This document shows positions 1-56,883 of a stretch of 64,000 bases of DNA, in pieces. A program made the position numbers and the translations under genes. The DNA comes from Saccharomonospora cyanea NA-134 (lineage in GTDB: Bacteria; Actinomycetota; Actinomycetes; Mycobacteriales; Pseudonocardiaceae), in contig NZ_CM001440.1 of assembly GCF_000244975.1 (NCBI RefSeq), positions 310,001-374,000 on the forward strand, given 5' to 3'. The notes under the pieces were generated by a model, which saw only the letters and a list, made by a program, of their open reading frames with translations, was not told the origin of the DNA and searched no databases. Numbering within the stretch: position 1 is the first letter of the stretch; each line of letters begins with the position of its first letter.

Positions 1-1
1 A

Positions 2-445
2 TGGCGGGCACAGGTGTACTGGGAGGCCGACCGGGACGGCGCGGGGAACCCGACCGGCACCCTGAGGGTGCTGATCGGTACGGCTCTCGCCTTCACGCTG
101 CTGCTCAGCGGCGGCAACCTCGTGGTCCTGACCAGTGCTCAGGTACTCCAGCGCCGCAGGGCCCTCGCGGCGTTGCGAGCGACCGGTGTGCCACGCGGCG
201 TGCTGGGCCGTTCGTTGCTGTGGCAGAACGGAATCCCCGTGGTCGTGGGTGTCGGAGTCGCTTCGGGGGTCGGGGTGGGAGCGGCCGGGTTGCTCACGAG
301 GCTGCTCGACACGCCGTTCCGTCTCGACTGGGGTGCCCTCGCCGCGTACGCGGTCACGGCCGTGGTCGTCGTCGGCGTCGTGACCGCAGCATCGGGGGTG
401 GCTCTCAGAGCGGTCGAAGGGGAGACCTCGCTGCGCGGGGAGTAG
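2..445 (+). CDS. FtsX-like ABC transporter permease, C-terminal fragment
   Basis: The reading frame is open to the left edge, so only the last 147 codons are present. Three hydrophobic segments are visible, at about residues 25-45, 75-100 and 115-135. Between the first two lies a basic cytoplasmic stretch, RRRALAALRATG, typical of the FtsX/MacB permease domain that follows the extracytoplasmic domain. The protein ends in a short polar tail. Proteins of this kind move lipids, lipoproteins or antimicrobials with a partner ATPase, which would lie outside the window. The substrate cannot be told. Confidence 0.75.
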   Translation, partial: WRAQVYWEADRDGAGNPTGTLRVLIGTALAFTLLLSGGNLVVLTSAQVLQRRRALAALRATGVPRGVLGRSLLWQNGIPVVVGVGVASGVGVGAAGLLTRLLDTPFRLDWGALAAYAVTAVVVVGVVTAASGVALRAVEGETSLRGE

Positions 446-477
446 TGGTGTGGCTCCACCACGAGGCCGAAAGTGCG

Positions 478-483
478 TAGGCT
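478..483 (+). promoter_or_regulatory. -10 hexamer TAGGCT, leaderless promoter
   Basis: TAGGCT ends 7 nt before the GTG at 491. This spacing puts the transcription start at or next to the start codon and argues for 491 over the upstream GTG at 473. No clear -35 box is seen. Confidence 0.5.
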
Positions 484-490
484 GTCGCTC

Positions 491-886
491 GTGATCTGTC
501 CCAAGTGCCAGAACGTGATGACGACGTTGGACAAGAACGGCATCCACATCGAGCAGTGCAGTGGCTGTCGGGGCATCTTTCTGGATCGGGGTGAACTCGA
601 ACAGATCGTGAGCGCGGAGAACTCCTTCTACGGTTCCGCGCCCCCGCCGCCCTACAGCCCCGCCTCGCAGCCGCCGCCACCGCCCGTGGCGCCCACCCAG
701 CACTACGGCGCTCACGGCCACTACGGCGACTCGCCGCGCCCCTACCGGGGCGGCCACGGTGGTCACTACGCGGACTCCCCGAGGCCGTACCGCGGCGGGC
801 ATCACGACTCGCCGCGCCCGTACGGACACGGACACGGACACGGGCACCGGCGTAGGAAGAGCTTCCTGGAAAGCCTGTTCGACTGA
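491..886 (+). CDS. zf-TFIIB domain protein with His/Pro/Tyr-rich tail
   Basis: The 131-residue product opens with a four-cysteine zinc ribbon (CPKC at residues 3-6 and CSGC about 25 residues later, then GIFLDRGELE), the hallmark of the zf-TFIIB family. After residue 50 it is low complexity: a proline run, then three copies of DSPRPY with Gly/His spacers and a GHGHGHGH run. It ends in a basic motif and SFLESLFD. The GTG at 473 is possible, but 491 gives the usual family start MICPKC and fits the leaderless -10. The His-rich tail could bind metal, but this is inference. Its role is unknown. Confidence 0.75.
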   Translation: MICPKCQNVMTTLDKNGIHIEQCSGCRGIFLDRGELEQIVSAENSFYGSAPPPPYSPASQPPPPPVAPTQHYGAHGHYGDSPRPYRGGHGGHYADSPRPYRGGHHDSPRPYGHGHGHGHRRRKSFLESLFD

Positions 887-894
887 CGCCGGAC

Positions 895-1530
895 GTGCTG
901 GATCTCAAGATCTGCCCCGCCTGTGGCGACCGGGCGGAACTTCCCGTCGTCGAGGGGGAGCGGCTGGTGTGCGAGGTGTGCGGTCATCGCGCCGCGTTCC
1001 ACCGGCTGCCCCTGCTCGCTCTCACCGGGCCCAGCGGTGCGGGCAAGTCCACGGTGGGTCCCGAACTCGCGCGCCGGTTGTCGGGCGAGGTCGTGGTGCT
1101 GGAGCAGGACGTGCTCTGGACGGGGGCGCTGCGCGACGACGTGGACGGGCATCCCGCGTTCCGCTCGACGTGGTTGCGGATGGCGGCCATGATCCATCAG
1201 AGCGGCCGCCCGGTCGTGTTGTGCGGCACCGTCGTGCCGCCCGAGTTCGAGTCGTTGCCGGAGCGGGTGTTCTTCTCCGGCATCCACTACCTGGCGCTCG
1301 TCGCCGACTCCGACGTGCTGGCCCGCCGGTTGCGGGGCCGTCCGGCGTGGCGGGGCTGGGACGAGCCCCGGATCGTGGAGATGCTGGCGTTCAACGAATG
1401 GTTGCGTCAGGAAGGGCCGTCGATGTCTCCGCCGGTCGAGTTGTTCGACACCACCACCGTGCCGCTGGCCGACTCCGTGGAGCATGCGGAGAAGTGGGTG
1501 CGGCGGGTACTCGACGCGGGAACCGCCTGA
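895..1530 (+). CDS. P-loop nucleoside kinase-like protein with N-terminal zinc ribbon
   Basis: The 211-residue protein carries a zinc ribbon (cysteines 7, 10, 26, 29) followed by a Walker A motif GPSGAGKST at residues 45-53. The rest is compatible with an AAA or adenylate/nucleoside-kinase-like fold, with an RRLRGRP lid-like stretch near residue 145. It starts 8 nt after the zf-TFIIB gene, so the two are probably co-transcribed and both carry zinc ribbons. The substrate is unknown. The GTG start is the only reasonable one, but its ribosome binding site is weak. Confidence 0.7.
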   Translation: MLDLKICPACGDRAELPVVEGERLVCEVCGHRAAFHRLPLLALTGPSGAGKSTVGPELARRLSGEVVVLEQDVLWTGALRDDVDGHPAFRSTWLRMAAMIHQSGRPVVLCGTVVPPEFESLPERVFFSGIHYLALVADSDVLARRLRGRPAWRGWDEPRIVEMLAFNEWLRQEGPSMSPPVELFDTTTVPLADSVEHAEKWVRRVLDAGTA

Positions 1531-1535
1531 TCGAG

Positions 1536-1554
1536 TGCAAGCTGAGCGCTTGCA
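1536..1554. promoter_or_regulatory. Inverted repeat, candidate operator of the XRE gene
   Basis: TGCAAGC and GCTTGCA form a perfect 7-bp inverted repeat around 5 nt. A -10-like TAGCGT lies at 1573-1578, so the repeat would cover the -35 region of the promoter of the XRE gene at 1603. Autoregulation is a plausible inference. Confidence 0.45.
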
Positions 1555-1602
1555 ATAGTTAGCACCCGGGCGTAGCGTCGATCTCGGAGGTGTGGGGACG
1601 TC

Positions 1603-2037
1603 ATGGAGCGGACGTCGGAGCGCGACGACCACGCGGGCGGCCCGATGGACCGGGTCGCCGATCTGGGAAAGGACATCGGCTCCTACATCCGGCAGCAGCG
1701 CAACAACGCCAAGATCTCGTTGCGGCAGCTCTCCAGGCTCGCCGGAGTGTCGAATCCTTACCTGAGCCAGATCGAACGGGGACTGCGCAAGCCGAGTGCG
1801 GAGATCCTGCAACAGATCGCCAAAGGGCTGCGCATCTCCGCCGAGGCGCTGTACGTGCAGGCGGGGATTCTCGATCATCCCGTCGGCGGTCCCGTGGTCG
1901 AAGCGGTCCGTGCCGACACCTCGCTGAGCGAGCGGCAGAAACAGGTGCTGCTCGATGTGTACGAGTCGTTCCGCCGGGAGAACCGGGGAACGACCCCCGC
2001 AGGTGATTCGAGCAAAAGCCCAGACCACAAGGAGTGA
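1603..2037 (+). CDS. XRE-family helix-turn-helix regulator
   Basis: The 144-residue protein has a HTH_3 domain at about residues 22-80, with the recognition helix in SNPYLSQIERGLRKPS. The short C-terminal part is charged. It is followed after 6 nt by an HbhA-like gene and then a DUF2516 gene, the order I recall for Rv0474-Rv0475(hbhA)-Rv0476 of M. tuberculosis. The ATG is preceded by GGAGG. The inverted repeat at 1536-1554 is the natural candidate operator. Targets are otherwise unknown. Confidence 0.85.
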   Translation: MERTSERDDHAGGPMDRVADLGKDIGSYIRQQRNNAKISLRQLSRLAGVSNPYLSQIERGLRKPSAEILQQIAKGLRISAEALYVQAGILDHPVGGPVVEAVRADTSLSERQKQVLLDVYESFRRENRGTTPAGDSSKSPDHKE

Positions 2038-2043
2038 GTCACG

Positions 2044-2826
2044 ATGGCGACCACACGCACCGAGGACGTCCGCAAGGTGGTGAACACGGCGATGGAGCAG
2101 GTCAGGACCTCGCTGCTCGCCGCGCTCGGAGCAGGCAGTCTGGCCGGCCAGGCGGTCGCGGATGCCGTGTCGAAGGCGAGGACGCGCGTCTCCTCAAGCA
2201 GTGACGCCGCCAAGAGGAACATCGAGGACCTGCCGACGGAGCTGGAGCAACTCCGAGGCCGGCTCGACCCGGCCGAACTGCGCAAGCTCCTCGACGACTA
2301 CACCGAGGCGGCCACGAGGCTGTACCAGAGACTGGTCGCCTCCGGCGAGCAGACGTGGGAACACACGGTCGAGCCGCAGGTCAAGCGTGGGGTCGAGCAG
2401 TTGGAGGAGGCGCTGCACGCCGCGCAGGAGCAACTCGACGACGTCGCCTCGGACACGCGTGAACGCGTGGACGGCATGGTGGCGCTGCTCACCCGCCGGG
2501 CGCGCGAGGCGGAGCAGACGGTCGACGCGGCGGTCACCGGTGAGCTGTCGGAGGACAAGCCCGGCCCCGTCAAGGCCGACGTGGCGCAGGTTCCGGTGAA
2601 GACACAGAAGGGCCGGGCCCCGGCCGGCGAGGCGAAACCGACCGAGTCGGGCACGCGGACCAGAAGCGGGCAGACGAACGGGACGACTTCCTCGGCGGCG
2701 AAGACGTCCTCGGCGCGCAAGAAGGCGATGAAGCCCGGCACCGGCGCCTCCACCACGGCCCGGGCGCCGCGCGCTCGCCGCACCACCAAGCCACAGAGCC
2801 CGGGCGCCACGACCGACGAGCCGTGA
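2044..2826 (+). CDS. hbhA: HbhA-like heparin-binding hemagglutinin homologue
   Basis: The 260-residue protein has a helical, coiled-coil-like body (about residues 1-165, rich in Ala, Glu, Arg and Gln). It is followed by a Lys/Arg/Ser/Thr/Ala-rich disordered tail with repeated basic patches. This matches the design of mycobacterial HBHA, whose Lys-rich C terminus binds heparan sulfate and which also localises to lipid inclusions. It is longer than the roughly 200-residue mycobacterial protein, and its tail is more Arg/Thr-rich than the Lys-Ala repeats of the pathogen. An adhesin role in a soil organism is therefore uncertain; an envelope or lipid-associated role is as likely. Confidence 0.75.
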   Translation: MATTRTEDVRKVVNTAMEQVRTSLLAALGAGSLAGQAVADAVSKARTRVSSSSDAAKRNIEDLPTELEQLRGRLDPAELRKLLDDYTEAATRLYQRLVASGEQTWEHTVEPQVKRGVEQLEEALHAAQEQLDDVASDTRERVDGMVALLTRRAREAEQTVDAAVTGELSEDKPGPVKADVAQVPVKTQKGRAPAGEAKPTESGTRTRSGQTNGTTSSAAKTSSARKKAMKPGTGASTTARAPRARRTTKPQSPGATTDEP

Positions 2827-2906
2827 CGGCGGAGCGTGGGTCCTCGGCGGTCCTCGTGGCCGCCGTCGAGGCCCGCCGAAACCTCGGCCCTGTTGGTGTC
2901 CTGACG

Positions 2907-2912
2907 TAGGCT
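2907..2912 (+). promoter_or_regulatory. -10 hexamer TAGGCT, leaderless promoter of DUF2516 gene
   Basis: TAGGCT is followed by 6 nt and then the GTG at 2919. The spacing favours 2919 over the GTG at 2916. Confidence 0.55.
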
Positions 2913-2918
2913 GGTGTG

Positions 2919-3215
2919 GTGCCGCTACTCGCCTTCTACATCGTCATGGTCATCGACTGGGCCGGGGTGCTCGTCGGTCTCGTCGCGTTCGTGCACGCCG
3001 TGATGCAGAGGTCGGACGCTTACACGGCCGCCGACCGGTTGACCAAGCCCGCGTGGCTGGCCATCACGGCCGGCTCGACGGCCGCCATGCTGCTGTTCCA
3101 GTTCTACGGTGTCGGCATGATCTTCTGGCTCGCCGCGCTGGTCGCCAGCCTCGTCTACATCGTGGACGTGAGGCCCAAGCTCATCGAGGTGCAGCGCGGT
3201 GGGTCGAGCTGGTGA
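2919..3215 (+). CDS. DUF2516 family small membrane protein
   Basis: The 98-residue product has three hydrophobic segments (about residues 2-28, 45-65 and 68-88), and the C terminus is polar and probably cytoplasmic. Its position downstream of the hbhA-like gene matches Rv0476 of M. tuberculosis as I recall it. The function is unknown for the whole family. The start at 2919 was chosen from the leaderless -10 spacing; starting at 2916 adds one residue. Confidence 0.75.
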
Positions 3216-3234
3216 GCCCGGAAACCCGCTGAAA

Positions 3235-3240
3235 TAGTCT
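3235..3240 (+). promoter_or_regulatory. -10 hexamer TAGTCT, leaderless promoter
   Basis: TAGTCT is separated by 6 nt from the GTG at 3247, so the transcript would begin at the start codon. Confidence 0.55.
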
Positions 3241-3246
3241 GGTGAC

Positions 3247-3786
3247 GTGAGTAGCTGGACCATCGCTGGGACACTCACGCCGGTCCCGGCCTCCGAGCAT
3301 CCCGAACTGCTGGCCGAACCCGTCGCGAAGGCCCTGTCCTCCATCGAGGCCCCTGTCGGTCTCGTCGAGATCGACCCGGACCTGGCCGACACCGCAGCGT
3401 TCTGCGAGACGTACTCCTCGCCGCTGTCCGCCTCCGCCAACTGTGTGGTCGTGTCGGGCAAACGCGCGGGTGAGGTGCGCTACGCCGCCGCCCTGGTGCT
3501 GGCCACCACGCGCGCGGACGTCAACAACGTCATCCGGCGCAGGCTCGACGTGCGTAAGGCGTCGTTCGCGCCCATGGAGGAGGCCGTGGAGCTCACGGGC
3601 ATGGCCTACGGCGGCATCACACCCATCGGGCTGCCCTCCGACTGGCCGATCCTCGTCGACCAGGCCGTGGCCTCCGCGCCGGAACTGGTTGTCGGCAGCG
3701 GTATCCGGGGTAGCAAGTTGTTGGTCACCGGCGCCACGCTGGCGGCACTGCCCGGCGCCGAGGTGATCGACGGGCTCGCCAGGTGA
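3247..3786 (+). CDS. YbaK/EbsC-type aminoacyl-tRNA deacylase domain protein
   Basis: The 179-residue protein shows the YbaK/ProX fold signature: a central strand with CVVVSGKRAGEVRYAAALVLATTRAD, then RKASFAPMEEAVELTGMAYGGITPIGLP. The conserved Lys after VR and the GxxTP(I/F)G motif are typical. Family members hydrolyse mischarged Cys-tRNAPro, Ala-tRNAPro or similar in the cytoplasm. The exact substrate cannot be told from sequence. It appears to have its own leaderless promoter. Confidence 0.8.
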   Translation: MSSWTIAGTLTPVPASEHPELLAEPVAKALSSIEAPVGLVEIDPDLADTAAFCETYSSPLSASANCVVVSGKRAGEVRYAAALVLATTRADVNNVIRRRLDVRKASFAPMEEAVELTGMAYGGITPIGLPSDWPILVDQAVASAPELVVGSGIRGSKLLVTGATLAALPGAEVIDGLAR

Positions 3787-3816
3787 GCGAGCGACACCGC
3801 AGGAAGGGGCAGCGAC

Positions 3817-4257
3817 ATGGGTAGGGTCACGGCCACGGCCGAGCGCGCGATCGACGCGCCCGCCGAGAAGGTGAGCGAGCGGCTCGCCGACTACCGGGAG
3901 GTGCGGCCCCGCCTCCTCACCGAGCACTACCGCGACTACGAGGTCGTCGACGGCGGCAAGGGCGAGGGCACGGTGGTGCGCTTCAAGCTCCAGGCGACGA
4001 AGAAGCGGGTGCGCGACGTGCGCGCCACGGTGAGCGAACCCCGGCCGGGCACGCTCGTGGAGACCGACGCGAACTCCAGCATGGTCACCACGTGGACGGT
4101 GAGACCGGACGGCGACCGCAGCGTGGTCCGGGTGGAGACCACCTGGCAGGGCGCGGGCGGCGTCGGTGGGTTCTTCGAGAAGACGTTCGCCCCCAAGGGG
4201 CTCGGGCGGATCTACGACGGCGTGCTGACGAGGCTCGCCGAGGAGGTACGAGGGTAG
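3817..4257 (+). CDS. SRPBCC family protein
   Basis: The 146-residue protein has the START/polyketide-cyclase-like pattern: an N-terminal strand with RAIDAPAEKVSERLADY, central beta strands, and a C-terminal helix ending LTRLAEEV. Such proteins form a hydrophobic cavity that can bind lipids, polyketides or cofactors. It starts 30 nt after the YbaK gene with AGGAAGGGG as ribosome binding site, and its stop lies 2 nt before the next ATG, so it is co-transcribed with the reductase downstream. The ligand is unknown. Confidence 0.75.
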   Translation: MGRVTATAERAIDAPAEKVSERLADYREVRPRLLTEHYRDYEVVDGGKGEGTVVRFKLQATKKRVRDVRATVSEPRPGTLVETDANSSMVTTWTVRPDGDRSVVRVETTWQGAGGVGGFFEKTFAPKGLGRIYDGVLTRLAEEVRG

Positions 4258-4259
4258 CG

Positions 4260-5258
4260 ATGGCAGCGACGGAAGTGCGGCTCGCGTCTCGTCCCGAAGG
4301 GGCGCCGACGCTCGACAACTTCGAGGTGGCCGAGGTCGACGTGCCGAAGGCCGGTCCGGGACAGATCCTCGTGCGCAACACGTGGCTGTCGGTGGACCCG
4401 TACATGCGGGGCCGGATGAGCGCCGCCAAGTCGTACGTCACCCCGTTCGAGGTCGGCAAGGTGATGGACGGCGGGGCGATCGGCGAGGTCGTCGAGTCGA
4501 ACGCCGACGGTGTCGCGGTGGGCGATGTGGTGCTGCACGGCCTCGGCTGGCGGACGCACGCCGTGCTCGAACCCGCGCGGGTGCGTGTGCTGGACCCCGA
4601 GGCGGCGCCGGTGGAGGCACACCTGAGTGTGCTCGGCATGCCGGGCCTCACCGCGTACGCGGGGTTGTTCGACGTGGCGGGTATGCGTGAGGGCGACACG
4701 GTGTTCGTCTCCGGCGCCGCGGGTGCCGTCGGGTCGCTGGTGGGTCAGCTCGCCAAGCTGCGGGGAGCCAAGCGGGTCGTCGGCAGCGCGGGTTCGGCCG
4801 AGAAGGTGCGCTGGCTGCGGGAGGACCTCGGCTTCGACGCCGCGTTCAACTACAAGGACGCACCCGTCCGGGAGCAGTTGAAGGAGGCCGCGCCCGACGG
4901 CGTGGACGTGTACTTCGACAACGTCGGCGGAGAACACCTCGAAGCCGCGATCAGCGCGCTGAACGTGCACGGCCGGATCGCCGTCTGCGGCATGATCTCC
5001 CAGTACAACGCCACCGAGCCGACGCCGGCTCCGCGCAACCTCGCGCAGATCATCGGCAAGCGGTTCACCATGCGCGGGTTCCTCGTCGGCGACCACGAGC
5101 ATCTGCGCCCGGCGTTTCTCGACGAGGTGTCCCCGCTGGTGCGGGAAGGCCGGATCGCCTACACGGAGACCGTGGTGACCGGCATCGAGCGGGCGCCGCA
5201 CGCCTTCCTCGATCTGCTCTCCGGCGGCAACACCGGCAAGATGCTGGTGCGGCTCTGA
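4260..5258 (+). CDS. NADP-dependent oxidoreductase, MDR superfamily (CurA/PTGR type)
   Basis: The 332-residue zinc-independent medium-chain reductase shows SVDPYMRGRM near residue 45, the nucleotide-binding GAAGAVGSLVGQLAKLRGAK near residue 150, and VYFDNVGGEHLEAA near residue 220. These are typical of leukotriene B4 dehydrogenase/prostaglandin reductase/CurA enzymes that reduce enone double bonds with NADPH. The ATG at 4260, right after the SRPBCC stop, was chosen because the frame upstream overlaps that gene. The substrate is unknown. Confidence 0.85.
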   Translation: MAATEVRLASRPEGAPTLDNFEVAEVDVPKAGPGQILVRNTWLSVDPYMRGRMSAAKSYVTPFEVGKVMDGGAIGEVVESNADGVAVGDVVLHGLGWRTHAVLEPARVRVLDPEAAPVEAHLSVLGMPGLTAYAGLFDVAGMREGDTVFVSGAAGAVGSLVGQLAKLRGAKRVVGSAGSAEKVRWLREDLGFDAAFNYKDAPVREQLKEAAPDGVDVYFDNVGGEHLEAAISALNVHGRIAVCGMISQYNATEPTPAPRNLAQIIGKRFTMRGFLVGDHEHLRPAFLDEVSPLVREGRIAYTETVVTGIERAPHAFLDLLSGGNTGKMLVRL

Positions 5259-5278
5259 GGAGTCGGCGGCCTCCTCAG
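5255..5278. terminator. Short bidirectional hairpin between convergent genes
   Basis: CTGAGGAG and CTCCTCAG form a perfect 8-bp inverted repeat around 8 nt. It covers the stop codons of both the reductase and the formyltransferase. It has no clear T-run, so function as a terminator is likely but unproven. Confidence 0.45.
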
Positions 5279-6225
5279 CCCTCCGGATACCGGGTGAGGT
5301 AGCCGCCCATCGCGCGGAAGTACTCCGTGGCGGCGTGCTCGACTCCGTCGTCGGTACGCAGCTTCTCGATCGCGAGGCCGGGGCTGCGCCCGTACCGGGC
5401 GTCGGCCCCGGCGACGATCACCACGCCGTCGCCCTCGCGGATGAAGACGCGGCCCGGCGTGCCTCCGTAGGTCTTCTCGGTCACGAACGCCCGGGTGATC
5501 CGCAGCCGTTCGCCCCGGTGATAGGTGAAGGCGTTCGGGTACGGGTCGGACTGGGCGCGCACGAGCCGTTCGATGTCCTCGGCAGGCCAGCTCCAGTCGA
5601 TACGGCTGTCCTCTATGGACCTTTTGTGGAAGAACGTCGCCTTGCCGCGGTCCTGCGGTACCGGCCGGGCCCGCCCGGACGCGATCGCCTCGAGCGATTC
5701 GGTGACCAGCGGTTCGATGAGGTCCACGGTCCTGTGGAACAGGTCGGTGGCGGTGTCGCGGGGGCCGACCTCGACCGCCCGTTGCGCGATGATCGGGCCC
5801 GCGTCGAGTTCGGCGTCCATCAGGTGCGCGGTGACGCCGACCTCCTTCTCCCCGTTCAGCAGTGCCCAGATGAGCGGCGAGAAGCCGGCGTAGGCGGGCA
5901 GCAGCGAGTCGTGCACGTTGAGCGTGCCGTGCTTCGGCAGTTCGAAGATCTCGGGCGGGAGCCAGGTGCGCCAGTTGTTGGCGACGACGAGGTCGGGTGC
6001 GAGGTCGGCCAGCCGGTCGGCGAGTTCGGCGTCGGGTCGGTTGCGCAGCTCGACCGGGATGCCCGCTTCGGCGGCGAGGTCGGCCACGGAGTCGGCCCAG
6101 ATGCGCTCGTAGGCGTGGTCGGAGTGGGGGTGCGTCACGACGAGCACCACCTCGTGTTCGGAGTCCAGCAGCGCACGCAGTGTGCGATGTCCCCAGGTCT
6201 GGTATCCGAACATCGCGATCCGCAT
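5275..6225 (-). CDS. Formyltransferase, probable N5-hydroxyornithine formyltransferase for siderophore
   Basis: The 316-residue protein has the formyl_trans_N catalytic motif NVHDSLLP (N103, H105), with the second motif HLMDAELDAGPI (H134, D141), and a shorter C-terminal domain. Fmt-type enzymes transfer a formyl group from 10-formyl-THF. Divergence from an N-hydroxylase gene across an iron-box intergenic region suggests it formylates hydroxy-ornithine, as in coelichelin or rhodochelin pathways; that substrate is inference. The ATG at 6225 (MRIAMFGY) was chosen because it begins the Rossmann strand. The housekeeping methionyl-tRNA formyltransferase is the alternative, but the context argues against it. 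Confidence 0.75.
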   Translation of the reverse strand: MRIAMFGYQTWGHRTLRALLDSEHEVVLVVTHPHSDHAYERIWADSVADLAAEAGIPVELRNRPDAELADRLADLAPDLVVANNWRTWLPPEIFELPKHGTLNVHDSLLPAYAGFSPLIWALLNGEKEVGVTAHLMDAELDAGPIIAQRAVEVGPRDTATDLFHRTVDLIEPLVTESLEAIASGRARPVPQDRGKATFFHKRSIEDSRIDWSWPAEDIERLVRAQSDPYPNAFTYHRGERLRITRAFVTEKTYGGTPGRVFIREGDGVVIVAGADARYGRSPGLAIEKLRTDDGVEHAATEYFRAMGGYLTRYPEG

Positions 6226-6262
6226 CGGCCCTCCAGGCGGTCGACGGCAAAGCGGGCCATAG

Positions 6263-6281
6263 TTAAGCAAGCCTTGCCTAA
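6263..6281. promoter_or_regulatory. IdeR/DtxR-like iron box 1
   Basis: The 19-mer beginning TTAAGCAAG and ending TTGCCTAA is a near-palindrome resembling the DtxR/IdeR consensus TTAGGTTAGSCTAACCTAA. It lies 38 bp upstream of the formyltransferase start, where an Fe(II)-loaded repressor would block transcription. Confidence 0.6.
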
Positions 6282-6344
6282 CTATGCAAGACCCCGTCCG
6301 AGAGACGAGTCACCCACGAATGGGCGAACTAAGGTGGGGCTAAC

Positions 6345-6363
6345 TTAGGTTAGGGTTGCCTGG
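6345..6363. promoter_or_regulatory. IdeR/DtxR-like iron box 2
   Basis: The 19-mer starting TTAGGTTAGG matches the iron-box consensus at 14 of 19 positions; the left half is perfect. It is preceded by a partial copy (CTAACTTAG). It lies 31 bp before the hydroxylase start, so the divergent pair is probably iron-repressed from both sides. Confidence 0.6.
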
Positions 6364-6394
6364 GTTCGGAAGTCGTCGACCGATGGGGACACGT

Positions 6395-7807
6395 ATGTCG
6401 AAGGAGTTGCGAGGCGGGCGAGAGGTCCTCGACCTGCTCGGCGTCGGATTCGGTCCGTCGAATCTGGCGCTCGCGATCGCCGTGTCCGAACACAACTCCG
6501 CCGTGCCGGAGCGGGAGAGACTACGCGCGCGATTCCTGGAGCGGCAGGAGTGCTTCGGCTGGCACCGGGGGATGCTCATCGACGACGCCACCATGCAGGT
6601 GTCCTTCCTCAAGGACCTGGTGACCCTGCGCAACCCGGCCAGCGACTTCAGCTTCCTGGCCTATCTGCACGAGCAGGGCAGGCTTGTCGACTTCGTCAAC
6701 CACAAGACGTTGTTCCCCCTGCGGGTGGAGTTCCACGACTACTTCCGCTGGGCCGCGGACCGGGTGTCCCACCTCGTGTCGTACGGCACCGAGGTCACGG
6801 CCGTGCACCCCGTGGTGGGAGGTGGGCGGGTGACGCACTTCGAGGTGTCCACTCGCGACGGTTCGGTGTACGCCGCCCGCAACCTCGTGGTGGCGACCGG
6901 GCTCGTGCCGTCGCTGCCGGAGGGGATGAGCGCTTCCGAGCGGGTGTGGCACAACAGCGACCTGCTGCACAAAGTGGACGGTGTTTCGAGTGCGTCGCGG
7001 TTCGTGGTCGTCGGTGCGGGCCAGAGCGCCGCCGAAACCACGGCGATGCTGCACGAACGCTTCGCCGAGGCGGAGGTGTGTGCGGTCTTCTCCCGGTACG
7101 GGTACAGCCCGTCGGACGACAGTCCGTTCGCCAACCGGGTCTTCGACCCCGCTGCGGTCGACGAGTTCCACGGTGCCCCGCAGGACGTGCGCGACCGGCT
7201 GCTGGCCTACCACGCCAACACGAACTACTCCGTCGTGGACATCGAGCTCATCGAGGACCTCTACCGCAGGCACTACCGCGAGAAGGTGATCGGCGAACAG
7301 CGGCTGCGCATCCTCAACGCCTCCCGGGTGACCGAGGTGGCGGAGACCGACGACGGTGTACACGTCACGGTGGAGTCGCTCACCACGGGGCGGCGCACGG
7401 TGCTCCACGCCGACGTCGTCGTCTGCGCCACCGGATACCGTCCCGGCGACATGACGACGTTGCTCGGCGAAGCCGCCACCATGCTGCGCCGTGACAAGGC
7501 GGGGAGGCCGCTGGTGGCCAGGGACTACCGGCTGCTCACCGAGTCCGACGCCGACGCGGCCGTCTACGTCCAGGGCGGCGCGACCGAACACAGCCACGGC
7601 ATCACGTCGTCGCTGTTGTCCAACAACGCCGTGCGCTCGCGGGAGATCCTCGACTCCGTTCTCGGTCGTACGGCCTCCACTCAGGGCGGGAGGAACGGCG
7701 CCGAGATCGCCGACGCCTACTCCGGGGGCGCGGAGGCGCACCCGGGCGTCGGTGTGGGTGTCGGCACCGGCGCTCCCGGGGGCGGCGGGCTGCGGCACGT
7801 CGGCTGA
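6395..7807 (+). CDS. L-ornithine/L-lysine N-monooxygenase (siderophore hydroxylase)
   Basis: The 470-residue flavoprotein of the SidA/IucD/PvdA family has an N-terminal FAD motif [12 protein letters not shown] near residue 17, an NADPH motif [10 protein letters not shown] near residue 205, and a C-terminal ATGYRP. It N-hydroxylates the side-chain amine of ornithine or lysine using FAD, NADPH and O2, the first step to a hydroxamate. The formyltransferase across the divergent promoter favours ornithine (inference). The ATG at 6395 has GGGGA 5 nt upstream; 6383 is an alternative. The last 35 residues are a Gly/Val-rich tail of unknown use. Confidence 0.9.
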
Positions 7808-7877
7808 CGAGACTGCGGCTGCCCGCCCGGTGGCCGTACCGACCGGCGGACGAATGGCGACGAGTGAGGAGGAACCG

Positions 7878-8072
7878 GTGACGAACCCGTTCGACGACCC
7901 CGAGGGCCGCTTCTACGTGCTGGTGAACGACGAGGGTCAGCACTCGCTGTGGCCGTCCTTCGTCGACGTGCCCGCGGGCTGGCGGGTGGTGTTCGGCGAG
8001 GACAGCAGGCAAGCCTGCCTCGACTACGTGGAAGCCCACTGGACGGATCTGCGCCCGGCGAGCCTGAGGTAG
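7878..8072 (+). CDS. MbtH-like protein
   Basis: The 64-residue product is a typical Mbt[12 protein letters not shown] at the N terminus, the conserved [10 protein letters not shown] with S, L and W, then PAGW and a C-terminal [12 protein letters not shown]. MbtH proteins bind and activate NRPS adenylation domains. The GTG at 7878 follows AGGAGGA by 4 nt and gives the standard family start; an in-frame ATG at 7854 is less likely. No NRPS is in the window, so its partner must lie elsewhere. It is probably co-transcribed with the hydroxylase 70 nt upstream. Confidence 0.92.
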
Positions 8073-8083
8073 CCAAGCCGGGC

Positions 8084-8123
8084 GTGTCCGCAGGCTGCAC
8101 GCGTGTCCGCGGTTCGCGTACGG
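8084..8123. repeat. GCGGACAC intergenic repeat, copy A (inverted orientation)
   Basis: Two GTGTCCGC cores (8084-8091 and 8103-8110) lie 19 bp apart. Read on the minus strand, they are preceded by a 13-nt spacer CCGTACGCGAACC at 8111-8123. The module order (spacer 2, core, spacer 1, core) is the same as copy B at 9610-9651. It sits between the convergent MbtH and hydrolase genes. Confidence 0.7.
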
Positions 8124-9002: not shown

Positions 9003-9608
9003 GTGGATGACAAGCTCCCCGGAACCCTTCCCGGAAGTCGGCGCCCCGGACGTGGTCCTCGTCAGGCACAGGAGATCTACCGCGCCACCCTGGAACTTCT
9101 GGGCGGAGGCGGTTACGACGCCCTGACCGTCGAGGCCGTCGCGGCGCGTTCGGGAGTGAACAAGACGACCATCTACCGCTGGTGGCCGGACAAGGACGCG
9201 TTGCTCGGCGCGGCGATCGTGCAGTCCTCGCTGCTGCGGTTCGACGTGCCCGACACCGGGACCCTTCGTGGTGACCTGAGCGGTCTCGTGCACCGCCTCG
9301 TGGGTCTGATGACCGGTGAGGCCACGTCCGGGGTGGTGGTCGCCGCGCTGGCGGCGGTCGCGGGCAGGCCCAGTCTGGCGTGGTTGGCGCGGGAGTTCGT
9401 CACCGACCGGCTGGCGGGTGAGCGTGCCGTGTTCGACCGTGCCGTCGAGCGGGGTGAGTTGTCCGGTTCGGTGGACCCGGCGTTGGTGCTCGACCTCCTC
9501 GCGGGTGCGGTGTGGTCGCGGGTGATGTTGCGGCAGGCGCCGGTGCCCGACGACTTCGCCGACGAGGTTGTGAAGGTCGTGCTGGAGGGGTGTGCCGTCC
9601 GGGCGTGA
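9003..9608 (+). CDS. TetR/AcrR family repressor
   Basis: The 201-residue protein has an N-terminal HTH (TVEAVAARSGVNKTTIYRWW at about residues 40-60), with a ligand-binding all-helical C-terminal domain. A frame extends back to 8943, but that would translate through operator 2; GTG 9003 fits the leaderless -10. It is the probable repressor of itself and of the divergent hydrolase through the operator pair. The inducing ligand is unknown, and nothing links it firmly to the iron genes around it. Confidence 0.88.
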   Translation: MDDKLPGTLPGSRRPGRGPRQAQEIYRATLELLGGGGYDALTVEAVAARSGVNKTTIYRWWPDKDALLGAAIVQSSLLRFDVPDTGTLRGDLSGLVHRLVGLMTGEATSGVVVAALAAVAGRPSLAWLAREFVTDRLAGERAVFDRAVERGELSGSVDPALVLDLLAGAVWSRVMLRQAPVPDDFADEVVKVVLEGCAVRA

Positions 9609-9609
9609 G

Positions 9610-9651
9610 CCGTACGGGAAGTGCGGACACGCGTGCACAGCCTGCGGACAC
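9610..9651. repeat. GCGGACAC intergenic repeat, copy B
   Basis: The order is spacer 2 (CCGTACGGGAAGT, 9610-9622), core GCGGACAC (9623-9630), spacer 1 (GCGTGCACAGCCT), core GCGGACAC (9644-9651). The period is 21 bp. It begins right after the TetR stop codon and ends 12 bp before an iron box. Confidence 0.75.
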
Positions 9652-9663
9652 GCCGGCGGGCGG

Positions 9664-9682
9664 GAAGGTGAGGCTAACCTAG
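9664..9682. promoter_or_regulatory. IdeR/DtxR-like iron box 3
   Basis: The 19-mer containing AGGTGAGGCTAACCTA matches the iron-box consensus at about 15 of 19 positions. It is upstream of the fecCD-type importer operon. Confidence 0.65.
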
Positions 9683-9702
9683 CCTGGACCGGTCATCGTC
9701 GG

Positions 9703-9721
9703 TTCGGTTAGCCTCACCTTA
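9703..9721. promoter_or_regulatory. IdeR/DtxR-like iron box 4 overlapping the start codon
   Basis: The 19-mer TTCGGTTAGCCTCACCTTA matches the consensus at about 16 of 19 positions. Its last base is the A of the ATG at 9721. With box 3 it forms a pair 39 bp centre to centre, so the importer is predicted to be tightly iron-repressed. Confidence 0.7.
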
Positions 9722-10800
9722 TGCCGCCGGCCGTCTTCGCTGACCCCGCTTCGGAAACCGAACCGGGCGATCGCGCCGTTTCCTCCCGGCGTTGGGCGCA
9801 CGTGCTGCGGGCGGGCGGCCTCGTGGTGATCGCCGCAGCGCTGGCCCTCGTCGCGCTGCTCAGCGTGTGGTTCGGATCCAAGGACATCCCCTTCACGGAC
9901 ACCTGGGACGTGCTGCTGCACCCCGAGGCCTGGGCGGGCTCGGACGCGGTGGTCATCATCCACGACTACCGCATTCCCCGGACTCTGCTGGGGATCGTGG
10001 CCGGTGCGGCACTGGGAATCTCCGGTGCGCTGATGCAGGCGTTGACACGCAACCCGCTCGCGGAGCCGGGACTGCTCGGGGTCAACACGGGCGCGTCCAC
10101 CGGCATGGTGGTGGCGATCGCCTTCCTCGGGGTCACGTCGGTACTGGGCTACGTGTGGTTCGCCCTGGTGGGCGCGGCGCTGGCCTCGCTGGTGGTCTAC
10201 GTGCTCGGTGCCGCGGGACGCGGCGCCGCGAGTCCGGAGCGGCTGGTGCTGGCGGGAGCGGCGATCACCGCCGTGCTCTACGCCTTCAACACCGCCGTGC
10301 TCCTGTCGGACCCGCAGGCCTACGACGAGTACCGGTTCTGGATGGTCGGCTCGCTGGCGGGCCGCTACTACGACGTGTTGCTGCCCGTGCTGCCGTTCGT
10401 GGTGGTGGGCACGGTCATCGCGCTGCTGCTGATGCGCCCGCTCAACGCCCTGGCGATGGGCGACGACCTGGGTAGGGCGCTCGGCACCCGCCCCGGCCTC
10501 ACCAGGGTGTTCGGGGCCTTCGCCGTGACGCTGCTGTGCGGCGCGGCCACGGCCGCCGTCGGGCCGATCGCCTTCGTGGGGCTCGCGGTGCCCCACGCGG
10601 TGCGGCTGCTGGTGGGGCCGGACCAGCGTTGGGTGCTGCCGTACTCCCTGGTGGCCGCGCCGTTGCTGCTCGTGGGGGCCGACGTGGTCGGACGCGTGGT
10701 CGCCTCGCCTGCCGAGGTGCAGGTCGGCATCGTCACCGCGGCCATCGGAGTGCCCGTGTTCTGCCTGTTGTGCCGACGACGGAGGCTGGCCAGCCTGTGA
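9721..10800 (+). CDS. FecCD-family iron-siderophore ABC permease 1
   Basis: The 359-residue polytopic protein has about ten hydrophobic segments. Family motifs are YRIPRTLLGIVAGAALGISGALMQ (cut here by normal variation) near residue 85, NPLAEPGLLGVN, and the ATPase-contacting ALGTRPG region followed by GPIAFVGLAVPH. It forms half of the membrane channel with the next gene. The start ATG lies inside an iron box. Its stop overlaps the next GTG by 4 nt, indicating translational coupling. Confidence 0.9.
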   Translation: MPPAVFADPASETEPGDRAVSSRRWAHVLRAGGLVVIAAALALVALLSVWFGSKDIPFTDTWDVLLHPEAWAGSDAVVIIHDYRIPRTLLGIVAGAALGISGALMQALTRNPLAEPGLLGVNTGASTGMVVAIAFLGVTSVLGYVWFALVGAALASLVVYVLGAAGRGAASPERLVLAGAAITAVLYAFNTAVLLSDPQAYDEYRFWMVGSLAGRYYDVLLPVLPFVVVGTVIALLLMRPLNALAMGDDLGRALGTRPGLTRVFGAFAVTLLCGAATAAVGPIAFVGLAVPHAVRLLVGPDQRWVLPYSLVAAPLLLVGADVVGRVVASPAEVQVGIVTAAIGVPVFCLLCRRRRLASL

Positions 10801-30943: not shown

Positions 30944-31888
30944 GTGACGTCACGAGGTGCGGCGCGGGTGGTGCCGCTGCGTCCGGACAGGCGTGACGGG
31001 GAGGACGCGCGGTCGAGCGTGGTACCCCTGCCCGTGCGCAGGGCCGCCGACCGGCATACCACGCTCTCCGGCCTGGTCGACTTCGTGCGGCGCAGGCTCA
31101 GCGGTGACTACGAGGTCGACGAGTTCGGGCTGGACCCCGAGTTCACCGAGACAGTGCTGGTCCCACTGCTTCGGCCGCTGTACGAGCGGTGGTTCCGCGT
31201 GAGCACGCACGGCATCGACCACGTTCCCGCCGAGGGCGGCGCACTGCTCGTGTCCAACCACTCGGGTGTGCTGCCGCTCGACGCGATGATGACGGCGTTC
31301 GCCGTGTACGACGAACACCCTGGGCACCGGTTCCTGCGCATGCTCGCCGCCGACCTCGTTTTCGACACCCCCGTGCTGGGGTCGCTGGCACGAAGGAGCG
31401 GTCAGACGCTCGCGTGCCACCCCGACGCCGAGCGGTTGCTGCGTGCCGGCGAACTGGTGGGCGTGTGGCCCGAGGGGTACAAGGGCGTCGGCAAGCCGTT
31501 CTCTGCGAGGTACAAGCTGCAGCGCTTCGGGCGCGGGGGTTTCGTGTCGGCGGCGCTGCGGACGTCGGCGCCGATCATCCCGTGTGCGGTGGTGGGCGCG
31601 GAGGAGATCTACCCGAAGATCGGTGACATCCGGCCGTTGGCTCGCCTGCTGCGCCTACCGTACTTCCCCGTGACGCCGTTCTTCCCACTGCTCGGTCCGC
31701 TGGGGACGGTGCCGCTGCCCACGAAGTGGCACATCGAGTTCGGTGAGCCCATCCGCACCGACGGCTACGCCGCTGACGCCGACGACGACCAGATGCTGGT
31801 GCTGGGTCTCACCGACCAGGTGCGGGAAAGCATCCAGAACATGCTCTACCGCAGGCTGGCTCGCCGCCGGGGAGTCTTCACCGGCTGA
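30944..31888 (+). CDS. Lysophospholipid/glycerol acyltransferase family protein
   Basis: The 314-residue PlsC-like protein has the block I motif SNHSGVLPLDAMM, in which His and Asp are separated by six residues rather than the usual four, and block III WPEGYKGVGKPF in place of the usual FPEGTR. It acts on acyl-CoA or acyl-ACP and a glycerolipid at the membrane. It matches Rv0502. The GTG at 30944 follows GGGGAGAGG. The N-terminal 40 residues are basic and poorly ordered. Confidence 0.85.
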   Translation: MTSRGAARVVPLRPDRRDGEDARSSVVPLPVRRAADRHTTLSGLVDFVRRRLSGDYEVDEFGLDPEFTETVLVPLLRPLYERWFRVSTHGIDHVPAEGGALLVSNHSGVLPLDAMMTAFAVYDEHPGHRFLRMLAADLVFDTPVLGSLARRSGQTLACHPDAERLLRAGELVGVWPEGYKGVGKPFSARYKLQRFGRGGFVSAALRTSAPIIPCAVVGAEEIYPKIGDIRPLARLLRLPYFPVTPFFPLLGPLGTVPLPTKWHIEFGEPIRTDGYAADADDDQMLVLGLTDQVRESIQNMLYRRLARRRGVFTG

Positions 31889-31910
31889 TCCCGACGAGAC
31901 GCCGCGGTCC

Positions 31911-32019
31911 GTGTCCGCATTTCCCGCACGGGTGTCCGCACTTCTCGTGCGGGTGTCCGCGTTGTCGCCGCGGGCACGCGTGCATGAACTGCGGACACGC
32001 GTTCGTAGCCTGCGGACAC
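31911..32019. repeat. GCGGACAC intergenic repeat, copy C: symmetrical 3+3 array
   Basis: Three GTGTCCGC cores start at 31911, 31932 and 31953. Then come three cores on the opposite strand: GCGGGCAC at 31970 and GCGGACAC at 31991 and 32012. Each set has an exact 21-bp period, and the two sets face each other across 9 nt. Spacers in the left arm are of type 2 (CCGTGCGGGAAAT read on the minus strand), and those in the right arm of type 1 (GCGTGCATGAACT). The array fills the gap between two convergent genes. Confidence 0.8.
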
Positions 32020-32023
32020 GATG

Positions 32024-33013
32024 TCAGGCGATGCGTTTGCGGTAGGCCAGACCGGCGGCCACGGCACCGGCCAGTGCGCCGGCGCCCAGCACGGAGGGCA
32101 CACCGATCTTCGCGGCCTTGCGGCCGGTGCGGAAGTCGCGGATCTCCCAACCCCGGGCACGGGCCACCTCGCGCAGCCCCGAGTCCGGGTTGACCGCCAC
32201 GGCGGTACCGACCACCGACAGCATCGGGACGTCGTTCTGCGAGTCCGAGTACGCCGTGCAGCGGCGCAGGTTGAGGCCTTCCCGCGCTGCGAGTGCCCGG
32301 ACGGCGTGTGCCTTGGCCCTGCCGTGCAGCAGGTCACCGACCAGCCTGCCCGTGTAGACACCGTCGGTGCTCTCCGCGACGGTGCCGAGCGCTCCGGTGA
32401 GGCCGAGCCTGCGCGCGATGATGGCTGCCAGCTCCACCGGGGTGGCGGTGACCAGCCAGACCCGCTGGCCCGCGTCGAGGTGCGTCTGCGCGAGCGCCCG
32501 CGTGCCGGCCCAGATCTTGTCGGCCATGAGCTCGTCGTAGATCTCCTCGCCGATGGCGACCATTTCGTCGACGGTGCGGCCCGCGACGAACGACAGCGCC
32601 TGTTCCCTGCTGGACTGCACGCCCTGGTGGCTCTCCCGGCCGCCCACCCGGAACTTGACCTGCTGCCATGCGAAGCCGGCGAGGTCGGAGGTGCTGAAGT
32701 ACTTACGCGCGGCGAGTCCCCTGGCGAAGTGGAAGATCGACGCGCCCATCATCATCGTGTTGTCGACGTCGAAGAACGCGGCGGCGGTGAGGTCCTGGGG
32801 AACGGGTGTCCGCTCGACCTCGGGCGCCTCGGGTTCGGCCTCGGGTGCCTCGGCCGTCGCGACCGAGGCTGCCTCCATCGCGACGGCGGCTTCGGCCGAC
32901 GCCTCGCCTGCCAGCGCTGCGAGCCGCTCGCGTTCCCGCCCCTTACCGCGGCTCCGCCAACGAGACACGCACACCGCCTCCATACGTATGGTCCGCCTCC
33001 GGCGCTTGGTCAC
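32024..33013 (-). CDS. HAD-IB family hydrolase, SerB1-like phosphatase
   Basis: The 329-residue protein has the HAD motif [11 protein letters not shown] (nucleophile Asp and general acid Asp), motif [11 protein letters not shown], a Lys-containing region and motif [14 protein letters not shown]. Annotated homologues include phosphoserine phosphatase SerB1 and CDP-alcohol-associated acyltransferase partners; the reaction here is uncertain. A disordered Ala/Glu stretch (residues 35-70) precedes the domain, and a short hydrophobic segment lies near the C terminus. GTG 33013 or ATG 32983 may be the start. Confidence 0.82.
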
Positions 33014-55902: not shown

Positions 55903-55931
55903 GCGGACACGCGTGCACAGCATGCGGACAC
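55903..55931. repeat. GCGGACAC intergenic repeat, copy D
   Basis: Two GCGGACAC cores, at 55903-55910 and 55924-55931, enclose a type 1 spacer GCGTGCACAGCAT, period 21 bp. Spacer 2 is absent. It lies between the short membrane gene and menB, which are convergent. Confidence 0.75.
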
Positions 55932-55959: not shown

Positions 55960-56883
55960 TCAGTAGTAGTACGGGTAGTCCGACCAGTCCGGGTCGCGCT
56001 TCTCCAGGAAGGCGTCGCGGCCCTCCACGGCCTCGTCCTGCATGTAGGCCAGCCTGGTGGTCTCACCCGCGAACACCTGCTGGCCCACCAGGCCGTCGTC
56101 GACGAGGTTGAACGCGTACTTGAGCATCCGCTGCGCCGTGGGCGACTTGCCGAGCACGTCCCACGCCCACTCCAACGCCTCGGCCTCCAGCCGCTCGTGC
56201 GGCACGGCCCTGTTCACGGCGCCCATCGCGTGAGCCTCCTCGGCCGTGTAGGGCCGCCCGAGGAAGAAGATCTCGCGCGCGAACTTCTGACCGACCTGCC
56301 GTGCCAGGTAGGCCGAGCCGAACCCGCCGTCGAAGGAACCCACGTCGGCGTCGGTCTGCTTGAACCGTGCGTGCTCCGCCGAGGCGAGCGTGAGATCGCA
56401 CACGACGTGCAGCGAGTGACCGCCACCCGCGGCCCAGCCCGGCACGACTGCGATCACGACCTTCGGCATGAACCTGATCAGGCGTTGCACCTCCAGGATG
56501 TGCAGCCTGCCCGCCCTGGCGGGGTCGATGGTGTCCGACGTCTCGCCGCTGGCGTACCGGTAGCCGGACCGGCCGCGAATACGCTGGTCACCACCGGAGC
56601 AGAACGCCCAACCGCCGTCCTTGGGAGAGGGTCCGTTGCCGGTGAGCAGGACGCATCCGACGTCGGAGCTCATCCGAGCGTGGTCGAGGGCGCGGTACAA
56701 CTCGTCCACGGTGTGCGGGCGGAAGGCGTTGCGCACTTCCGGCCGGTCGAACGCCACACGCACGACGCGCTTGCCGGACCGGGTTCTCCTCGAACGGTGG
56801 TATGTGATGTCGGTGAAGTCGAAGCCTGCGACCTCGTCCCACTCGGCGGGGTCGAACAGCTCCGAAACCTGGGTTTGGCGCAC
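55960..56883 (-). CDS. menB: 1,4-dihydroxy-2-naphthoyl-CoA synthase
   Basis: The 307-residue crotonase-fold enzyme cyclises OSB-CoA to DHNA-CoA. It has ITYHRSRRTRSGKRVVRVAFDRPEVRNAFRPHT-type N-terminal region, SGGDQRIRG, the oxyanion loop GWAAGGGHSLHVVCDLTLAS, and the C-terminal EKRDPDWSDYPYYY. GTG 56883 was chosen over the frame start at 56937 because a TATTCT -10 lies 7 nt away. Confidence 0.95.
   Translation of the reverse strand: MRQTQVSELFDPAEWDEVAGFDFTDITYHRSRRTRSGKRVVRVAFDRPEVRNAFRPHTVDELYRALDHARMSSDVGCVLLTGNGPSPKDGGWAFCSGGDQRIRGRSGYRYASGETSDTIDPARAGRLHILEVQRLIRFMPKVVIAVVPGWAAGGGHSLHVVCDLTLASAEHARFKQTDADVGSFDGGFGSAYLARQVGQKFAREIFFLGRPYTAEEAHAMGAVNRAVPHERLEAEALEWAWDVLGKSPTAQRMLKYAFNLVDDGLVGQQVFAGETTRLAYMQDEAVEGRDAFLEKRDPDWSDYPYYY

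Follow-up and report, generated by a model that had tools for sequence, protein, structure and literature searches.

What is a symmetrical array of six 8-bp words, three facing three at an exact 21-bp period, doing between the stop codons of two convergent genes? In the window (the whole 64,000-nt stretch of DNA that was analysed), the 3+3 arrangement, its period and the 9 nt between the arms are all borne out as an earlier note had described them, and so is the convergence of the flanking genes, which encode an acyltransferase and a HAD hydrolase and have their stop codons toward one another (Table 1). Five of the six cores are exact, the exception being GCGGGCAC at 31970-31977, which the note had covered by the wording 'GCGGACAC-type'. 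The left arm, assigned a period of 21 and 2.4 copies by Tandem Repeats Finder, reads away from the acyltransferase stop codon, with 22 nt from the stop to the first core; the right arm, on the minus strand, begins 4 nt past the stop codon of the HAD gene; and the centre is one base shorter than the commonest family spacing (10 nt or 10+21k). The window holds 20 cores versus 10.9 expected. Four Rfam 15 matches to positions 31000-33000 each stay under the gathering score, and plasmid and phage collections contain no match to positions 31880-32040. The element is best read as a member of a lineage-specific family of gene-end elements. As a separate observation, inverted TTAGG/CCTAA-type motifs lie at 9665-9725 of the window, upstream of a FecCD transporter gene, and resemble the box of an iron regulator (IdeR/DmdR).

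Table 1. Coordinates of the element, its flanking genes and further arrays of the same family (positions in the window unless another stretch is named)
Feature	Position	Strand	Remarks
Left arm, three GTGTCCGC cores	31911..31960	+	cores at 31911, 31932, 31953; pitch 21 bp
Centre between facing arms	31961..31969	none	9 nt
Right arm, cores GCGGGCAC, GCGGACAC, GCGGACAC	31970..32019	-	cores at 31970, 31991, 32012; pitch 21 bp
Head tetranucleotide, stop codon to first right-arm core	32020..32023	-	minus strand TGA-CATC-GTGTCCGC; fits C(A/G)NC
Acyltransferase (Pfam PF01553), ended by left arm	30968..31888	+	stop 31886-31888; longest ORF from 30944
HAD hydrolase (PF12710), ended by right arm	32024..32983	-	stop 32024-32026; longest ORF from 33013
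Same family, two cores	8084..8110	+	rarer 19-bp pitch; first core 11 nt past stop of called + gene 7854-8072
Same family, two cores at 21 bp	9623..9651	-	minority orientation; reads toward stop of + TetR-type gene 9003-9608
Same family, two cores at 21 bp	55903..55931	-	first core 28 nt past stop of minus-strand enoyl-CoA hydratase-type gene 55960-56883
Region with an array upstream of L10-like gene	L141 5646-7480 (G000), L397 11220-13046 (G090)		unusual promoter-side position

Tandem pairs of the form GCGGACAC-N9-16-GCGGACAC, counted at 17-24 bp start-to-start, number 113 in the one-contig, 5,408,301-bp genome of the window (G000; other G numbers denote the relatives compared), versus 0 for a reversed-pattern control, so that such pairs, for which the earlier note had proposed a comparison with chance, are far above it. 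Further measurements were made on 60 stretches (803 kb including the window) around the pairs listed, namely the first 100 of the 113 (up to 4.84 Mb), and on eight 20-kb background stretches; background stretches at round-coordinate places, 16 in all (320 kb), held one array. The spacing of exact same-strand cores in G000 has a single peak at 21 bp (97 pairs; two at 19 bp and one each at 20 and 17 bp), with further peaks near multiples of 21, and 97 of the 102 neighbouring cores within 9-40 bp lie exactly 21 bp apart, as do 71/71, 66/66, 58/59 and 67/70 in four relatives. Read in the sense direction, the G000 unit is about GTGTCCGCA-(GBY)-TGYGYACGC; the conservation of the core in this consensus is no evidence, because cores were the search criterion, and outside it a G occupies position 16 in 97-100% of units while positions 12, 13, 15 and 17 are mostly pyrimidine (four genomes). 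A protein-coding repeat (21 bp being seven codons) was rejected, as 18- and 24-bp spacings are missing from G000 and a sister version has a pitch of 22 bp; a Z-DNA-like alternating tract is found in the G000 consensus and, judged by eye, is broken in G024, and was likewise dropped.

Where do these arrays sit? With genes called by a home-made codon-usage gene caller and an array defined as at least two exact cores, the 86 arrays of the G000 sample form 73 elements, of which 34 lie between convergent genes, 32 between tandem genes, 5 between divergent genes and 2 inside a called ORF. Relative to intergenic length, a background taken mostly from array-centred stretches with the array-bearing gaps included, convergent regions are enriched (34/71 elements versus 18% expected) and divergent regions depleted (5/71 versus 31%). 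Placement inside coding regions as often as outside, which would have spoken against the earlier note, is not what is seen: only 3 of the 86 arrays fall within called genes, although 88% of this DNA is coding; the figures in relatives are 0/31 for G024, 7/32 for G020 and 0/31 for G009. In 65 of the 86, GTGTCCGC points away from a stop codon that lies no more than 300 nt off; 50 arrays are within 25 nt of a stop codon, and the distance seen most often is exactly 4 nt (18 arrays), followed by 11 nt (10 arrays). Among the 18 heads of 4 nt, 16 fit C(A/G)NC and 17 come after TGA. The orientation and distance rule is broken by 21 of the 86. Stop-codon anchoring as a rule, like the genome-wide family, was out of reach of the earlier note. 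Relatives behave alike: where an array has its upstream gene in sense, it begins no more than 25 nt from the stop codon in 19/21 (G024), 15/21 (G020) and 18/24 (G009) cases, counts that include three (G024) and one (G009) arrays containing the called stop codon. Across five genomes, a gene 3' end lies within 120 nt of 149 of 172 elements, and the other 23 have none at that distance. Promoter-side arrays, which might have pointed to a regulator gene, have no recurrent gene beside them, bar the same loci in two close relatives; one such array stands 281-291 nt upstream of a gene that by eye is ribosomal protein L10-like, in G000 and G090. An array has also been multiplied together with its gene: in L143 6549-16834 (about 652-663 kb of G000), three called genes in a row, with about 1,090 codons apiece, all carry the same array 34 nt after the stop; the first has a subtilase domain (PF00082), and the other two are similar to it only by eye and at the N-terminus.

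The two halves of an element are also, for the most part, placed in register with one another. Inward-facing exact cores at up to 60 bp are separated by 10, 31 or 52 bp in 34 of 46 core pairs in G000, 25/25 in G024, 31/48 in G020 and 32/35 in G009, with the reservation that these counts cover gaps seen at least twice and that pairs within one element are not independent. Gaps of 29/50, 30/51, 39 and 60 also occur, and outward arrangements are fewer than inward-facing ones. The 10-bp centre is roughly RYCGYRCGRY; covariation of its end bases was dropped as independent evidence, since it follows the lineage's base at unit position 9. A relation to the replication arms, raised in the earlier note, found no support, the strands being mixed in both halves (26 plus and 28 minus; 20 plus and 12 minus), and replication-arm polarity was set aside for want of a strand-by-half bias. 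Among the pairs listed, to 4.84 Mb, element density is higher toward dnaA than around 2.0-4.0 Mb. By eye, the G000 contig begins with a dnaA-dnaN-recF-gyrB-like gene order.

A family-wide scan of 249 genomes, which follows up the search of related Pseudonocardiaceae suggested earlier, found the arrays to be abundant only in Saccharomonospora and a few related genera: 8 of the 12 genomes of the same genus carry 113-339 pairs and the other four 0, 0, 0 and 4, while in other genera there are 155 (G009), 128 (G020), 42 (G058), 33 (G028) and 7 (G146), the remaining genomes having 13 pairs or fewer. A scan of the order (397 genomes) shows the exact-21 pattern to be abundant in no further lineage, with at most 4 in any genome outside the family. 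Names assigned via shared 50-mers are Saccharomonospora piscinae for G024, MAG DX1.bin91 for G173, S. saliphila for G196 and a MAG labelled Actinophytocola for G028. All seven pairs of G146 fall within a single region of 2.6 kb next to a metabolic gene cluster, and this region was considered and set aside as a carrier of a trans-acting factor, as it flanks that cluster and shows no candidate by eye. The 13 pairs of G065 belong mostly to a version with a 22-bp pitch, about GTGTCCGCCTTTCCGGCACCCC, which is present in three g27 genomes including G093, a member of the window's own family that is ~94-96% identical to Kibdelosporangium aridum over the shared stretch. The stretch L086 (JOAA01000019.1, 'Rhodococcus rhodnii NRRL B-16535') is 100% identical to G093 (L463) over 7,183 bp (positions 1-7183) and ~94-96% identical to Kibdelosporangium aridum (L087), so that its species label is probably wrong.

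What do the array-free members of the genus have instead? Three of them, G160, G185 and G207, contain 151, 78 and 95 copies of GAAGGNNNCCTTCACGGC (control 0), which is found 0 times in seven array-bearing members, 7 times in S. piscinae, 4 in G009 and once in G196, and whose 30-bp arrays form long inverted repeats at gene ends. In 20 stretches (19 of G185 and 1 of G207), 51 units of GAAGGNNNCCTTC make up 22 elements, none in called genes, with a same-orientation pitch of 30 bp (7/7) and facing pairs at 30, 60 or 90 (23/25); 10 of the 22 elements are convergent versus 24 of 103 gaps. A similar design therefore exists with another word and another pitch. Replacement of 21-bp by 30-bp arrays at orthologous ends was looked for with 30 genes that 30-bp arrays terminate: 4 were matched in the G000 DNA compared and 1 of these 4 is array-ended there; the 30-bp family in the place where others carry 21-bp arrays is directly visible only at a locus encoding an EF-G-like protein.

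Do the arrays stay at the same gene ends? At the window's locus, followed in 16 genomes, two or more exact cores with 21-bp spacing are present in G000, G090, G111, G062, G024 and G009, i.e. in 5 of the 8 array-bearing Saccharomonospora, with differing architectures, and in G009; G144 has exact cores and decayed units, G173 one facing pair and G128 decayed units only. No array was found there in G196, G020, G058 or G028, nor in the readable part of the partly masked locus in G160, G185 and G207. Two further loci were picked for having arrays already known from two genomes. At one, encoding an O-methyltransferase-like protein, at least one exact core occurs in 9 of 14 genomes, these being the 8 array-bearing Saccharomonospora and G009; at the EF-G-like locus, the ten gene ends that were readable among 14 genomes comprise four with 21-bp arrays, three with the 30-bp family (G160, G185 and G207) and three with neither, and in G090 the whole element is absent, the TGA being followed directly by the flank. 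L157 (G000) and L361 (G090) carry identical copies of the O-methyltransferase-like protein and of the arrays on its flanks, although the third codon positions of other genes differ by 18%, which suggests that this stretch was exchanged recently between the two genomes.

A broader comparison of G000 with G090 used 20 stretches picked by synteny, and not by G090 arrays, plus the window's locus and the O-methyltransferase-like and EF-G-like loci, giving 197 orthologous genes and 193 gene ends compared. Arrays stand at 29 of these ends in G000 and at 25 in G090, and 19 are common to both versus 3.8 expected (P about 3e-14); after removal of the one identical, probably exchanged stretch, 16 are shared versus 3.0 expected (P about 4e-12). 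Among the shared arrays, the 16 that are not identical differ in the core at 7 of 256 sites (a single array with a 19-bp pitch accounts for four of these), a conservation flattered by the choice of shared arrays, each of which had to qualify as an array in both genomes, whereas 63 of 208 spacer sites (30%) differ; third codon positions differ by 18% (156 genes) and array-free downstream sequence by about 12% (median of 153 gapped alignments). Orthologous spacers are not significantly closer to one another than spacers from different loci (3.94 versus 4.39 differences, P 0.10). Shared places, a nearly unchanged core and diverged spacers together indicate that position, core and pitch are kept and the rest is rewritten. 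In three more distant genomes, for which a cruder comparison covered 15% of G000, 4/49, 4/47 and 3/46 array-flanking genes have an array-flanking match in G000; when only genes with any match are considered, the proportions are 4/10, 4/7 and 3/5, as against 3/15, 2/7 and 2/16 for non-flanking genes.

What kind of element would behave in this way? The reading that we favour, tentatively and at slightly less than even confidence, is that of a bidirectional gene-end element, i.e. a terminator or insulator, that is read by a putative sequence-specific factor. The core would be recognized by this factor, most likely a DNA-binding protein, at one unit per two helical turns; the bound arms would halt RNA polymerase as it leaves each gene and so insulate neighbours that converge; once transcribed, the inverted repeat may also contribute a long 3' stem, whose pairing would not be what selection preserves; and new units would arise by local tandem duplication. 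Recognition at the DNA level is favoured because the pitch is kept despite spacer divergence, the arms are phased and the word is fixed. The earlier note had proposed cooperative protein binding on one face of the DNA, and of this the 8-bp core, the maintained 21-bp pitch and the phased arms speak in favour, whereas the helical-face argument itself is weakened because the sister version has a pitch of 22 bp and the unrelated family one of 30 bp; two exact helical turns are evidently not essential. Other observations sit uneasily with the terminator/insulator reading as well: 21 of 86 arrays are off the rule, 23 of 172 elements are without a nearby gene 3' end, 7 of 32 arrays in G020 lie in genes, and no gene recurs beside promoter-side arrays except at the same loci of two close relatives. 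A bolder form of this reading, which we consider rather unlikely, holds that phased 21-bp arrays running outward from the stop codon become coated with a DNA-binding protein and constitute a new kind of polar roadblock that ends transcription, insulates convergent genes and comes in lineage dialects, these being the 21-bp GTGTCCGC form, the 22-bp version and, in sister species without 21-bp arrays, the unrelated 30-bp GAAGGNNNCCTTC form.

Could RNA pairing alone do the work, the element being a purely intrinsic bidirectional terminator or an mRNA 3'-protecting stem? The complete elements do fold strongly, and a hairpin could in principle suffice: for the window element the folding energies are -78.4 kcal/mol (z -4.7) in one direction and -73.0 kcal/mol (z -4.6) in the other. 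Median z is -4.9 to -9.1 in gene gaps that hold two arms (3 to 11 gaps per genome), -1.7 to -2.8 in those with one arm and -0.6 to -1.7 in array-free ones, and the inverted repeats that the 30-bp family forms at gene ends are cleaner still (median z -7.2). The earlier note's alternative of bidirectional termination or mRNA stability thus draws support from this two-way fold and from arms lying just past stop codons on both sides; its weak point is the T-tract, since the long stem has none and no terminator-like site was found within 31700-32200. The arms by themselves fold no better than shuffles in G000 (median sense z -0.16 and -0.14), although they lean mildly to folding in three other genomes (median z -0.4 to -1.7 versus 0 to -0.5 for controls), a point against the factor-read gene-end element. 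Sense and antisense fold energies do not differ significantly in four genomes, and arm covariation, assessed on 4 to 7 elements per genome, gives pairing within an element that is not significantly above pairing between elements (P 0.90, 1.00, 0.06 and 0.95). The 21-nt unit is an imperfect dyad in G000, G020 and G009 and is broken in G024 at pairs 2-20 and 3-19. An RNA hairpin at the level of the unit, which the G000 consensus had suggested, was on balance set aside in view of this break, of the G000 arms, which show no excess fold, and of the lack of strand asymmetry in the four genomes. The missing arm covariation, the missing arm fold in G000 and the broken G024 hairpin all favour recognition of DNA; moreover, pairing alone would hardly maintain one 8-mer over so many loci. 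A purely intrinsic stem is for these reasons improbable, and in our judgement selection acts on the word, with the stem as a by-product of the two inverted arms or an aid to them.

The main rival to the terminator/insulator reading is a selfish, non-autonomous repeat of the REP/BIME class, in which REPINs are also counted, spread by an enzyme and tolerated after stop codons, where insertion harms least. It would fit the abundance, lineage restriction and patchiness of the arrays, and a copying, mobile element would also suit the finding that spacers at orthologous ends resemble each other no more than unrelated spacers do. Gain and expansion are suggested at individual loci: at the EF-G-like gene end of G090, a near relative, the entire element is missing; ~300 extra bp that start with repeats of this kind lie past a stop codon in the Kibdelosporangium-like genome G093 (as in L086), where gain is the simpler reading because three relatives have a short gap; and an identical tandem expansion of 12 units is found in G090. 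Local tandem duplication of units is visible in this expansion and in adjacent spacers, which are more alike than those between arrays in G090, G009 and G020, and not in G024 or in G000, where adjacent spacers differ at 5.30 of 13 positions versus 4.77 between arrays and are thus no more alike. Against such a repeat, PF01797 (IS200/RAYT-type) has no match at E 0.001 in 8 of 12 array-rich genomes, namely G000 (closed), G062, G090, G144, G173 (91% complete), G009, G020 and G058, on which ground an element driven by RAYT/IS200 was rejected; the domain is present in array-rich G024, G111, G128 and G028 and in array-free G160, G005 and G012. Nor were near-identical dispersed copies noticed among the arrays inspected, bar the three beside tandem gene copies, the element has no plasmid or phage match, and persistence at the same gene ends far above chance, with the core held while spacers drift, is not what this origin would lead one to expect. 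A selfish repeat is therefore unlikely, if still to be taken seriously. Much less probable is a chromosome-organising site that binds gyrase or a nucleoid protein and absorbs supercoils between convergent genes: convergent enrichment, dyad arrays and the density toward dnaA would suit it, as would the report that BIME-2 elements bind gyrase (PMC2817692), whereas stop-codon anchoring and polarity to each gene would not be needed by such a site, and strand-by-half bias is missing.

How do the arrays compare with known systems? The factor-read gene-end element has an analogy of design in the Reb1 and TTF-I 'Sal box' arrays of eukaryotic rDNA, which are protein roadblock terminators. Like these, the arrays present a short, repeated motif resembling a protein site downstream of genes and in a polar manner, with a fixed word, a fixed spacing and polarity to the gene (65/86 arrays in G000); unlike them, they are bacterial and dispersed over the genome, so that the likeness is one of design only. 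The DNA uptake sequences of Neisseria likewise consist of a short fixed word with lineage dialects and are often paired in inverted orientation at gene ends, but are not set out in 21-bp tandem arrays. Intrinsic bidirectional terminators resemble the arrays in position, two-way symmetry and a strong stem in both transcripts, and differ in that the arrays have no T-tract, use one sequence at dozens of loci and show no arm covariation. Among the papers listed in a literature search, partly ranked by sequence letters, none describes the array element in its title or abstract opening; the earlier note, too, knew of no described element with this design. REP/BIME elements, for which links to transcription termination are reported (PMC2817692), are similar in occurring in more than 100 copies, mostly extragenic, with palindromic character, both orientations per element and species-specific alphabets, at least as that source describes them; the arrays depart from them in their 21-bp direct repeats, fixed core and stop-codon-anchored arms that are mostly in phase, and from the RAYT-associated kind in the absence of an IS200/RAYT-type transposase from 8 of 12 array-rich genomes. 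The nearest kinds are thus REP/BIME repeats and bidirectional terminators, and each lacks a defining feature here, the cognate RAYT in the one case and the T-tract in the other.

The repeated word, its exact pitch and its anchoring to stop codons at dozens of loci provide a testable handle on transcript ends. The way in which transcripts end in GC-rich actinobacteria without T-tract terminators is, to our knowledge, poorly resolved. The dialects, together with the unrelated family of the sister species, offer in addition a natural experiment on how dispersed repeats originate, spread and are replaced.
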